Source of the DNA: Candidatus Latescibacterota bacterium
GTDB taxonomy: Bacteria; JAAXHH01; JABIQT01
NCBI GenBank assembly: GCA_018667995.1
Contig: JABIQT010000729.1
Location: forward strand, 1 to 7,051
Reading direction: 5' to 3'
Length of the DNA stretch: 7,051 nt
Shown: piece after piece, positions 2,818 to 7,051 of the stretch
Layout: the number at the start of each line of letters is the position of its first letter
Position numbering within the stretch: the first letter of the stretch is position 1
Notes under the pieces: generated by a model
Seen by the model: only the letters and a program-made list of their open reading frames with translations
Database searches by the model: none
Told to the model about the DNA's origin: nothing
Program-made: the position numbers and the translations under genes

Positions 2818-4044
2818 TTACGCGGTTCTCAGATCGAATGCCACTTTTACCGCGCCCATACGCCCGGCCTGGATGGCATTCTGAATGGCTGCGCGATAAC
2901 GGCTCAGCGGATATGTTTGACTGACCAGCGGTTTCAACAGTGGACCATACTCTTCGAGCAGGCGTAGTGCCAGAGCGAATGTCCGAACTTGCTCATCTTC
3001 GAAGTGTTCCGTTCCGTACGCATAGGTTCCCTGGACGCGGAGTTCCTTGTACCAGATTGTGGTCCAATCGACGCCGGAGGGAATCCCGGGCATTCCCACG
3101 ATAGCCACGGTTCCATGCGATCGCGTCAACCGGAGGGAGTCGTCGATGGTTTCTGCCGTGCCCACACAGTCAAATGTTCCATGTACACCACCAATTACCG
3201 TCGGTTTGCCTATCTCAGGCTGGTAACTTTCGGCGCCGGTTTCAGTCCTGACCAATTCGTACATTTCTTTTCGATTGCTGACAACCTCATCGGCACCAAG
3301 ATTTCTCGCCAGGTCCTGCTGGTGTCCATATCGGGCCACCGCCAGTATCCGACAACGGCTGCCTATCGCTCTGAGTGCAGCGATCGTCAACAGCCCTATG
3401 GTGCCGCATCCAATCACCAGCACGGTATCGCCGTCCACAGGTCGTGCCGCAATCGCCGCATGAACGCAGCAGCTGAATGGTTCAATCAGAACGGCCTCTT
3501 CATCAGAGAGCGCATCAGATACTTTGTGAAGCTGATGCGCATGGGCGACGAACTCCTCGCTCCATCCGCCACCTGTGTCCCTGCAATAGCCGGTCTGAAT
3601 TCCTGGCGCTATATCTCCATGCATGATCCGCTCGCAATTACCATAGGCTCCATCTCGGCAACTGTCACAGACCGGGTCAATGCCACGAACGATACAGCAG
3701 AGCGCGGGTTCCAGGATAACGCGGTCACCTGCGACAAACTCGGATACCGCTGCCCCGACTTCACTTACATCACCGACTACCTCATGACCGAATACGAAAG
3801 GGCAGGACGTCATGGGTGAAAAATAAGGGCTTCCCTTGGCGCGAATGGTGGAGAGGTCCGAGCCACAGATACCGCTAAGCCTGGTTCTGATTCGTACCCA
3901 CGAATCACCCGGAAGCGCCGGTGGAGTCACTTCAGCCAGACGAATACAGGATAGTGCACCCGTACTCAAGAATGGCCATCGTCCCCCAAGAGCTCTGACG
4001 AATAAATACCGCGGAACGCTCTTTATGTATTGGACAGCTTCCAT
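2818..4044 (-). CDS. Zinc-dependent alcohol dehydrogenase-like MDR oxidoreductase
   Basis: A 408-residue cytoplasmic medium-chain dehydrogenase/reductase expected to interconvert an alcohol (or polyol) and a carbonyl with NAD(P). The GroES-like N-terminal domain carries the catalytic zinc ligands C60 (in GICGSD), H87-E88 (in FGHEVVG) and E188 (in IEPFS). A structural-zinc lobe has C116/C117, C126, C129 and C137. The Rossmann domain has GCGTIG at 212-217; the second strand ends in AVARYG rather than with the acidic residue typical of NAD-specific enzymes, so R238 could favour NADP (inference). The N-terminus has about 25 residues more than a minimal MDR before the barrel, and the family usually runs 340-400. 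Start ATG 4044 is backed by an AAGGAA ribosome site. The substrate cannot be read from sequence; threonine, sorbitol and general alcohol dehydrogenases share these motifs. It lies 77 bp after the HAD gene and 13 bp before the phosphatase gene. Confidence 0.92.
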   Translation of the reverse strand: MEAVQYIKSVPRYLFVRALGGRWPFLSTGALSCIRLAEVTPPALPGDSWVRIRTRLSGICGSDLSTIRAKGSPYFSPMTSCPFVFGHEVVGDVSEVGAAVSEFVAGDRVILEPALCCIVRGIDPVCDSCRDGAYGNCERIMHGDIAPGIQTGYCRDTGGGWSEEFVAHAHQLHKVSDALSDEEAVLIEPFSCCVHAAIAARPVDGDTVLVIGCGTIGLLTIAALRAIGSRCRILAVARYGHQQDLARNLGADEVVSNRKEMYELVRTETGAESYQPEIGKPTVIGGVHGTFDCVGTAETIDDSLRLTRSHGTVAIVGMPGIPSGVDWTTIWYKELRVQGTYAYGTEHFEDEQVRTFALALRLLEEYGPLLKPLVSQTYPLSRYRAAIQNAIQAGRMGAVKVAFDLRTA

Positions 4045-4121: not shown

Positions 4122-4805
4122 TTATTTCCAGTCTGCTATCTGCCATCCCCTATCAGCTGCAACTCGGCGCAGTTTAGACTTGGGATTGACCACTGTCGCG
4201 TGACCCACGGCGTCCAGCATGGGCATGTCAGAGCTGCTATCCGCATACCCATATGAGGCAGCTAGGTCGATGTGGTTTCGTTCAGCATACTCGCGAATGA
4301 TACGTGCCTTCTCACGGTCGCCGATGGGCTCAGATGTAAGCGTGCCGCTTAGGTGCCCATCCACATCATCCATGTGGACGGCAATGATGTCGTCTGCCTC
4401 AACAGATGCTGCCAGCGGTTCTATGATAAAGTCCAGTGAACCGGTGACCAGCACTACCCGGACACCCCGTGATCTGTGCTCTGAGATACGCGTCAAGGCG
4501 TCCATGTACAGCCGGGGTTTCATTATCTGCTGGAAGTGATCTACGCTGTGGTCACGCAGAATTTGAGCATTCATTCCACCGTAGTTCCGGTAGAATACAC
4601 GGTTGAAAGTGGATCGGCTGAGTTTGTCGAGCAAAAGATAGAATGCCACCTTCGGCAAAAACGCAGCTGTCCACAGGATTCGTTTGAGTCGCGAGAAGCC
4701 GAGTGTGGCATAAAAGGCATAATAGTGTACGACCGTTGCTTCTACGATGGTACCGTCCACGTCGAAGAATGCGGCTACTGGGCCGGCACGTTGCTCAGTT
4801 GACAC
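4122..4805 (-). CDS. HAD-IB (SerB-like) phosphatase
   Basis: A 227-residue HAD-superfamily phosphohydrolase of subfamily IB. All four motifs are present: FFDVDGTIV with nucleophile D15 and acid/base D17, LVTGS with T121, K166 as motif III, and YADSSSDMPML with D189 and D193. Residues 22-100 form a helical cap, with a hydrophobic stretch around 43-59 (LWTAAFLPKVAFYLLL) that might associate with the membrane. The profile resembles the HAD-IB proteins found beside or fused to PlsC acyltransferases, such as the M. tuberculosis protein annotated as phosphoserine phosphatase/PlsC, more than a dedicated SerB of serine synthesis. A phosphate ester of a lipid intermediate is a plausible substrate, but this is inference. 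The start is GTG 4805, preceded by GGGA at 5 nt, and the reading frame overlaps the acyltransferase gene by 11 nt (4795-4805), implying translational coupling. No other start fits, since the nucleophile follows at residue 15. Confidence 0.9.
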   Translation of the reverse strand: MSTEQRAGPVAAFFDVDGTIVEATVVHYYAFYATLGFSRLKRILWTAAFLPKVAFYLLLDKLSRSTFNRVFYRNYGGMNAQILRDHSVDHFQQIMKPRLYMDALTRISEHRSRGVRVVLVTGSLDFIIEPLAASVEADDIIAVHMDDVDGHLSGTLTSEPIGDREKARIIREYAERNHIDLAASYGYADSSSDMPMLDAVGHATVVNPKSKLRRVAADRGWQIADWK

Positions 4806-7051
4806 GCTGATCCCGAAGTTCTTCTATAGACGACCGGACCTGTTCGATCACGTCTCGGTACAGGGCGTAGTTCATGCGTGTGCCTTTTTTCGCCTTAAAT
4901 GGACCCATCTCCACGGGCGCTCCAAAGCTGACCTCTATTTTGCCGAATCTCGGAAGGGATTTTCCTTTCGGTAATATATCGTAGGTACCATGGATGAAAA
5001 CTGGTATGATGGGGACATTGAGTTCAAAGGCCAATAGTCCAAGACCCACCTTAAAAGGCTGCAGGTCGCCGTTGACCGATCTCGTGCCCTCCGGGTAGAT
5101 CAAGATAGGAGCTGTGGGGGACAGGACCTGTGAGGACACCTGAAGGCCCGACACTACATTCCCATGTCTGTCAAACGGAACCGCGTCCATGAACCTTCGG
5201 AAGAACCAGGACTTCAAGGGGGTATCGAAGAAATAGTCCTTTGCACCCAGTATATTCAGCCTGTCTACATGTTTCCACACAGCCGTGATGATGGCGCCGG
5301 AATCCAGATGACTGGAATGGTTGGCCGCGATGATATAACTCTGTTTTCGAGGCAGATTCTCAAGACCCTTGCACGATAATCCAAAAAGAGCGTGATACAT
5401 CAGGCGTCCCACGAGCCAGAATCCCCGTTGTGCGATTCCGCGTCTGGTCCGATGGCTCTTCGACGCCGCTTCGGTTTCCTCAGGGGCGGTGTGCTCCCAG
5501 CCCTCGGGTTTGAGAACCTTTCCCCAATAGGCGGATGTATCCACTGGTTCATTGATCGGGCCTACGGATTGATTCTGCACGTCGATATGTTGTTGAACCG
5601 TAGATAGGACGTCTTTCACGGTGTGCACATTGAGAGCTGCCGCATCCGGGATTGTGGTCTCGAATCGCGTTTCGAGAGCGGCCAATAGTTCGAGCCGCAT
5701 CAAAGAATCCATTAAGTCGTCGAGAGACCGGTCCGGATTCACGATGAGTTCGGCGACAGGACGATTGGTCAGTTGGCTGATAACGCTATAAACAGCTTCC
5801 TCCCAGCTGATGTCCTGTGATTGCTGATCTGGATTGGCAGCGTGCTTGCCACCGTTCTTCCGGACGGCCAGCTGCTCTCCCAGCAACTCCCGAAAGCGGA
5901 ATCGTCGCTTTTTGTCATCCTCTTCCTCTGGAAGTTCTCCGTCCCAGATATGTACGTGTTGGATACGTTGATAGCTTGGAAGAGCCCTCGATACAGACTG
6001 TACCTTGCCTATCACCTCCGATCGGAATGCGTCGGTGTCCCTGGGGCCCGTATACGCCTCCCAATCTGGCACCAGTATGGCGTGAACGTCCTCACTCATG
6101 GACTCGGGAGAGTGGACTCCCACGATTCGAAATTCCTGGATAAATGGGACGGATGCGTAGAACGACTCGACCTCATCCGGATAGACATTTTTCCCTGCGC
6201 CGGTTACGATCAGGTCTTTAGAGCGTCCCGTTATATAGAGGTAGTTTTCGGAGTCTATACGACCTATATCTCCGGTATATAACCATCCACCGCGTAAGTA
6301 CTCCGCCGAGGCATCTGGGTTTTCATAGTATCCTGCCATGACATTCGGCCCTTGGACAACGATCTCGCCGCAGCCCTCGCTATTGGGTTTATCGATCCGG
6401 ATTTCTATGCCAGGCAGTGGTTTGCCGACAGACGCGGGGCGGCTATTGTCGGGAGGGTTTACGGTAAGGATGGGCGCCGTCTCTGTAAGGCCATATCCCT
6501 CGTAAACGGTAAGACCAATATCTTTGTAAGATTGATAAAGATCGGCACTCAAGGCCGCGCCACCACTTACCAGAAGTCTCAGACGAGAAATCACCTCAGG
6601 GCCGGATCCGGTTCGATCGCCGACCTCTGCAATCCTCCGCAACCGATCATAGAGTAGCCGGAAGATACGCGGCACGGCGAGTATACATGAGGTTTCGGTC
6701 TCTTCGATGGTCTCGATCAATGCTCGCGTTTTCAATGTGTTGGTATACGTGATAGTCGCGCCTGCGTAATAGGGCATCAAGAAACCGCCCGTGAACTCCA
6801 GCGCATGATTCAATGGTAGAATGGAGAGGAAATTGTCAGTCTGGTAAGCTCGAAGCACATCGGCAAGCGAGAGCAGGTCTGAAACAAAATTGCCGTGTGT
6901 GAGCATGGCACCTCTGGGATCCACCGCGGTTCCCTTGGTGAAGATAATGGATGCAAGCGTGTCCGGCGACACAGGTGCCCAGACCGGTGGCTCCTCTTCT
7001 GACCAGACTGGCGGGTCCGATAACTTGTGATCATCGAAAGACCTGCCGTAA
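4795..7051 (-). CDS. AMP-forming acyl-CoA/ACP synthetase - acyl carrier - PlsC acyltransferase fusion, 5'-truncated
   Basis: The frame is open to the right edge with no stop, so the true start lies outside and the GTG at 6972 is an internal valine. Counting from the first whole codon (7050), 751 residues are visible. Residues 1 to about 395 are an ANL adenylation domain of the long-chain acyl type: a P-loop region (38-47), YGLTE (186-190), LYTGD (257-261), GRSKDLI (from 275), and a C-terminal hinge with KNVYPDEVE (from 287). Residues about 410-488 are an acyl carrier domain with LMDSL and the presumed phosphopantetheine serine S449. A linker (about 490-535) leads to a PlsC/LPLAT domain with NHSSHLD (H578, D583; the HX4D motif) and YPEGTRS (652-658). 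The expected reaction is ATP-driven activation of a fatty acid, loading on the built-in carrier, and transfer to a glycerophosphate or lysolipid at the membrane. E. coli Aas has the opposite order (PlsC first) and no carrier. The P-loop reads TKGTAVDPRG instead of TSGTTGxPKG. Roughly 150-250 N-terminal residues are missing. Confidence 0.94.
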   Translation of the reverse strand, partial: YGRSFDDHKLSDPPVWSEEEPPVWAPVSPDTLASIIFTKGTAVDPRGAMLTHGNFVSDLLSLADVLRAYQTDNFLSILPLNHALEFTGGFLMPYYAGATITYTNTLKTRALIETIEETETSCILAVPRIFRLLYDRLRRIAEVGDRTGSGPEVISRLRLLVSGGAALSADLYQSYKDIGLTVYEGYGLTETAPILTVNPPDNSRPASVGKPLPGIEIRIDKPNSEGCGEIVVQGPNVMAGYYENPDASAEYLRGGWLYTGDIGRIDSENYLYITGRSKDLIVTGAGKNVYPDEVESFYASVPFIQEFRIVGVHSPESMSEDVHAILVPDWEAYTGPRDTDAFRSEVIGKVQSVSRALPSYQRIQHVHIWDGELPEEEDDKKRRFRFRELLGEQLAVRKNGGKHAANPDQQSQDISWEEAVYSVISQLTNRPVAELIVNPDRSLDDLMDSLMRLELLAALETRFETTIPDAAALNVHTVKDVLSTVQQHIDVQNQSVGPINEPVDTSAYWGKVLKPEGWEHTAPEETEAASKSHRTRRGIAQRGFWLVGRLMYHALFGLSCKGLENLPRKQSYIIAANHSSHLDSGAIITAVWKHVDRLNILGAKDYFFDTPLKSWFFRRFMDAVPFDRHGNVVSGLQVSSQVLSPTAPILIYPEGTRSVNGDLQPFKVGLGLLAFELNVPIIPVFIHGTYDILPKGKSLPRFGKIEVSFGAPVEMGPFKAKKGTRMNYALYRDVIEQVRSSIEELRDQRVN
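4811..4814 (-). promoter_or_regulatory. Ribosome binding site of the HAD phosphatase, inside the upstream gene
   Basis: GGGA on the minus strand, 5 nt before GTG 4805 and within the last codons of the acyltransferase gene. It is short, so ribosome carry-over from the overlapping upstream gene probably contributes to initiation. Confidence 0.45.

Follow-up and report, generated by a model that had tools for sequence, protein, structure and literature searches.

The gene at one edge of the window, the 7,051-bp stretch of DNA that we analyzed and that constitutes an entire contig (G000:C329), is very probably a homologue of elbD, whose full product most likely comprised a fatty acyl reductase (FAR), an ANL acyl ligase, an acyl carrier (ACP), and a PlsC-type acyltransferase. 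By homology, this enzyme and its neighboring phosphatase would serve reduction, activation, acyl transfer, and dephosphorylation. The ligase-carrier-acyltransferase architecture is that of the known ElbD and is not new. An earlier note on this DNA had presented it as E. coli Aas in reversed order while allowing that it might already be characterized, which is largely the case (Lorenzen et al. 2014; passages of PMC9131029 and PMC9426513); ElbD fits, and Aas is not the relevant comparison. That note did not mention the atypical P-loop and A10 region of the ligase; the 5' end that it called missing amounts to approximately 700 residues. Although the architecture of ElbD is known, it is poorly understood, and the natural series of reduced enzymes described below makes the role of each domain in ether lipid formation testable.

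Domains and motifs of the window gene

The minus-strand open reading frame at 4795-7050 has 751 codons, ends in a TGA stop at 4795-4797, and is open at the contig edge, where its 5' end is lost. Based on the reading frame, Pfam matches, and alignment to relatives, it represents the C-terminal 751 residues (ANL-ACP-PlsC) of the putative ElbD homologue. Matches to AMP-binding (E = 1.3e-46, residues 20-242), PP-binding (3.9e-07, residues 419-482), and Acyltransferase (1.2e-23, residues 559-686) all exceeded the curated Pfam cut-offs. The AMP-binding match is restricted to profile positions 152-384, the last two thirds of the domain, and corresponds to the C-terminal part of the ANL N-terminal subdomain (6325-6993, minus strand, as for all features of this gene). 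The ANL C-terminal subdomain (5923-6174) was recognized from a weak AMP-binding_C match, slightly under its cut-off (22.1 versus 24.5 bits), and from its fold in a structure model of moderate confidence (pLDDT 69, pTM 0.44, below 50 in the P-loop region), which was used for domain boundaries only. The same model displayed the helical pattern of the carrier domain (5605-5796), in which Ser449, the phosphopantetheine attachment serine, lies in a DSL motif (codon 5704-5706). In the PlsC-type domain (4993-5376), the catalytic HX4D motif (5302-5319, within NHSSHLD) and the EGTRS motif (5077-5091, within PEGTRS) are, like the carrier serine, intact in the sequence and in the alignment. The earlier description of ligase, carrier with Ser449, and acyltransferase with both motifs within one polypeptide, in this order, was thus confirmed.

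Aas of E. coli and the LplT-Aas type likewise combine an ANL ligase and PlsC in one polypeptide, but their PlsC domain stands ahead of the ligase and they lack a carrier domain of their own, so that the order in the window is reversed and the internal ACP sets it apart. Aas family models matched the window protein only partially and far below their curated cut-offs, and identity with Aas was rejected on domain order, the internal carrier, and the PRK08043 score (125 bits against an NCBIfam cut-off of 886).

The missing N-terminal half

The phylum sample available for the window comprised 16 genomes of a single order. Homologues that are not cut occur in two of these, G001 (1472 aa) and G013 (1432 aa), and are 60-61% identical to the window protein across its length. 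Both begin with NAD_binding_4 and Sterile, followed by AMP-binding, PP-binding, and Acyltransferase (Pfam). NAD_binding_4 together with Sterile is the domain pair of fatty acyl reductases, and this part of the relatives matched the solved fatty acyl-CoA reductase 7eoz with an E value of 1.3e-84. In the G013 protein, the alignment with the window protein spans residues 702-1429, so approximately 700 residues are missing from the window gene, and in the relatives these include a complete fatty acyl reductase. As intact relatives in the phylum begin with FAR, the full architecture in the window is most likely FAR-ANL-ACP-PlsC; these relatives make FAR in the truncated gene itself a strong inference. 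Queries of 60 and 697 aa did not locate the FAR half in the source assembly, which is fragmented (6.06 Mb, 1165 contigs) and 85% complete, and this assembly did not yield the beginning of the ANL domain either, although it must exist. A scan of viral contigs with the full G013 protein yielded no match.

Relationship to ElbD

In Myxococcus xanthus, ElbD (Lorenzen et al. 2014) unites FAR, an acyl-CoA synthetase (ACS; ANL), ACP, and an AGPAT-like acyltransferase in one protein, as summarized in passages of PMC9131029. According to these passages, mutation of elbD strongly reduces ether lipids, most of whose formation requires ElbD, and the route is largely independent of an AGPS homologue; in vitro, ACS and ACP activities were reported, whereas FAR and acyltransferase activities were not detected. 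Passages of PMC9426513, which also cite Lorenzen et al. 2014, place elbD homologues in sponge-associated Poribacteria and Acidobacteriota; these have the same four domains and lie next to hydrolases and oxidoreductases. Hits to ElbD have been recorded across many phyla (PMC11868695, which gives ABF88003.1 as the accession of the M. xanthus protein). Myxococcota, to which the characterized ElbD belongs, also have full-length homologues; matches to a myxococcal homologue at E<=1e-150 came from 52 of the 188 genomes of this group. Our comparison with ElbD used its published domain set and myxococcal homologues.

The window shares with the M. xanthus system the ANL-ACP-acyltransferase set, most likely completed by the FAR seen in the relatives, and an HAD phosphatase gene in the cluster (elbB there, 4122-4805 here); the sponge-associated clusters in the passages of PMC9426513 have the same domains, again with FAR in the window deduced from the relatives. 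It differs from M. xanthus ElbD in the atypical P-loop and A10 region of its ANL domain. Neither this P-loop change nor the FAR-ANL-HAD fusion and FAR-only states reported below are described in those main-text passages of PMC9426513.

An atypical ligase active site

The canonical P-loop [FY]TSGTTGxPKG was found in all 30 sampled Myxococcota homologues (L068, L071-L099) and also in a proteobacterial homologue (L024). By contrast, the window protein carries FTKGTAVDPRG (6910-6942), and the three full-length members of the phylum (window, G001, and G013) share the form FTKGT[AS]VDPRG, at three positions of which the PROSITE AMP-binding signature PS00455 would presumably fail. The A10 region of these proteins lacks the usual T-x-T/S-R/G ahead of the lysine (LPEEEDDKKRR in the window, LPCEGDMKRAR in G001, and LPANGEPKERR in G013), but the catalytic lysine position itself, Lys380 in the window (5911-5913), is an invariant alignment column. 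Motifs A4, including its His, A5, A7, and A8 are also retained in all three. The second Gly of the P-loop is also replaced in an acidobacterial relative (L025, TSGTTVAPKA) and in clostridial relatives (TSGTTSxxKA), so that this change is not unique to the phylum. In the window's lineage, the ANL step has probably become weaker or can be dispensed with, acyl-CoA then coming from stand-alone ligases, two of which (L019 and L020) have canonical P-loops in the same phylum.

Reduction of the enzyme in sister genera

In genus g3, the enzyme is encoded by single reading frames of roughly 1200-1250 aa in which FAR is followed by a gutted ANL N-terminal subdomain, a variable low-complexity linker, and HAD (L039:6978-10688, L042:7078-10803, L060:4127-7855, L061:7239-10916, L062:7498-11103, L063:7529-11122, and L067:5547-9290); the ACP, PlsC, and ANL C-terminal subdomain are absent. 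The ANL remnant has a P-loop reading TRGMAAESHG, the A4 His is replaced by Gln (PMSQALEF), and both A8 and the A10 Lys are lost. Comparison of the fused proteins of seven genomes (Nei-Gojobori) gave a mean dN/dS of 0.117 for FAR, 0.119 for the ANL remnant, and 0.135 for HAD, against 0.46 for the linker, and the gutted ANL is therefore under purifying selection, like FAR and HAD. The stem leading to g3 measured 0.62 in the ANL tree versus 0.1 in the FAR tree. This long stem, combined with the low dN/dS, indicates a single episode of rapid change in the g3 ANL domain, followed by conservation. In genus g4, the reading frame of G011 (L059:4211-8202) stops soon after FAR, and beyond it HAD and the zinc dehydrogenase are encoded by genes of their own. 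G011 grouped with G001 in the FAR tree with only moderate support and with long outgroup branches.

Nearly all genomes of the phylum retain FAR and most retain HAD, but ACP and PlsC can be dispensed with, both having been lost in two sister genera. The full enzyme, the enzyme without ligase catalysis, and the reductase alone form a natural series that indicates which domains of ElbD are indispensable. The earlier proposal of a tethered mechanism, in which one protein activates, holds, and transfers an acyl chain without release, remains plausible for canonical ElbD but is weakened in the window's lineage. Since the ANL domain there is altered or dismantled and ACP and PlsC are lost where FAR and HAD persist, tethered acyl transfer appears unlikely to be the indispensable core of the phylum's enzyme. 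The chances seem to us evenly balanced that the ElbD ANL domain passed from the altered P-loop state seen in the window to a non-catalytic, selectively kept N-terminal subdomain fused between FAR and HAD. In that case, a new FAR-pseudoANL-HAD enzyme would contain this subdomain as a pseudoenzyme that serves as a spacer or binds the acyl chain.

Proposed function and alternative readings

All catalytic steps, and the ether-lipid function itself, are assigned to the window's lineage by homology. The ANL-ACP module would activate a fatty acid and hold it, and the FAR domain would convert a fatty acyl thioester to an aldehyde or alcohol for the ether-linked chain. The PlsC domain may then transfer an acyl chain to a glycerophosphate or (alkyl)glycerophosphate acceptor, and the adjoining HAD phosphatase may dephosphorylate a phosphorylated intermediate. 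The stand-alone ligases could supply acyl-CoA within the phylum. That FAR persists where the other domains have gone means that, in g3 and g4 at least, it does not require a substrate bound to the internal carrier.

The self-contained acylating enzyme envisaged in the earlier note, in which activation, loading of the internal ACP, and PlsC transfer proceed without release and without any FAR, appears highly improbable for the window. A carrier between activation and transfer is a reasonable reading of the domains, and FAR-less ANL-ACP-PlsC proteins with canonical P-loops do exist: two in G037 (821 and 842 aa; L040:8315-10780 and L043:6137-8665) and one in G033 (950 aa; L041:4400-7252). These have the same ligase-carrier-acyltransferase order and fit that description best, and the failure to find the FAR part in the window's assembly would also agree with it. 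However, their identity to the window protein is only 25-29%, whereas the nearest relatives that have the whole module, at 60-61%, are both intact and carry an N-terminal FAR, so the window gene probably does not encode a self-contained ligase-transferase; the atypical ANL active site and the dispensability of ACP and PlsC in two sister genera also speak against it. A free fatty alcohol or a wax ester precursor, instead of an ether lipid, is an unlikely product as well. The similarity to fatty acyl-CoA reductase and the retention of FAR where ACP and PlsC are lost would suit it, as would the finding of an AGPS-like protein in only 1 of the 16 phylum genomes (G013, contig C46), a count based on screened PF02913 matches in assemblies that are mostly incomplete. 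Against it, the ElbD route in M. xanthus is largely independent of AGPS (passages of PMC9131029), and the PlsC domain together with the HAD phosphatase and glycerol kinase neighbors points to glycerolipids. The rarity of AGPS-like proteins fits such an AGPS-independent route, although most assemblies being incomplete it is no proof of one.

A further reading, compatible with membership in the ElbD family, holds that the ANL domain no longer adenylates anywhere in the phylum and serves as a structural or acyl-binding part, with FAR and HAD forming the working core on acyl-CoA made elsewhere and the window representing an early stage of decay. It is favored by the TKGT[AS]VDPRG P-loop in 3/3 full-length members against 30/30 canonical P-loops in Myxococcota, by the g3 remnant, which lost the P-loop consensus, A4 His, A8, and A10 Lys and yet has a dN/dS of about 0.12, by the disproportionate ANL stem, and by the retention of FAR alone in G011. 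On the other side, 3/3 full-length members retain A4 His, A5, A7, A8, and the A10 Lys position, together with an intact carrier serine and intact PlsC motifs, and the acidobacterial and clostridial deviations at the second Gly imply that activity need not be abolished. We therefore regard a phylum-wide loss of adenylation as possible but tentative, and retain an ElbD-type enzyme as the preferred interpretation of the window gene.

The AGPS-like protein of G013 (L130:747-3557) matched mammalian alkyl-DHAP synthase at E 4.6e-157, carries the motif SHHHGIGKIRQRF, and adjoins a short-chain dehydrogenase. The other PF02913 matches were rejected as AGPS, being mostly glycolate-oxidase-like (GDGNIH motif) or fusions of ~980 aa. 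A CarF-type desaturase (PF10520) was not found in the phylum genomes by a search that matched no control genome either.

Neighboring genes

Downstream of the window gene, on the same minus strand, lie genes for an ElbB-like HAD-IB family phosphatase with a GTG start (4122-4805), which shares 11 bp with the 3' end of elbD and whose counterpart is fused to the protein in a sister genus, and a zinc-dependent medium-chain dehydrogenase (2818-4044, Pfam), which adjoins FAR/HAD in several relatives. These are followed by an FHA-GAF-SpoIIE (PP2C-type phosphatase) regulator (1152-2804, Pfam), also kept downstream in relatives, several of which have it beside FAR, HAD, and zinc dehydrogenase genes, and by a glycerol kinase (GlpK, family match) with its 3' end cut by the contig edge (3-1115), which is near elbD in G013 too. 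The short intergenic gaps suggest that these genes form an operon. In contrast to the elb operon, no elbC- or elbE-like genes occur downstream of the window gene, the sequenced side, where the zinc dehydrogenase, FHA-GAF-SpoIIE, and glycerol kinase genes stand instead. In G013, HAD and zinc dehydrogenase do not adjoin elbD. According to passages of PMC9131029, elbD and elbE are not always linked to elbB and elbC, so that neighboring elbC- and elbE-like genes do not define the protein.

The proteobacterial locus L024:3634-11450 contains, in order, HAD, a LarA N-terminal-domain protein, ElbD, and an epimerase. This fits the published elbB-C-D-E order, by which the 'unknown' ElbC may correspond to a LarA-like protein. 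In two families, a gene resembling bacterial phosphoglucose/phosphomannose isomerase lies directly upstream of the FAR-containing gene (L037:5582-6664 and L039:5872-6981).
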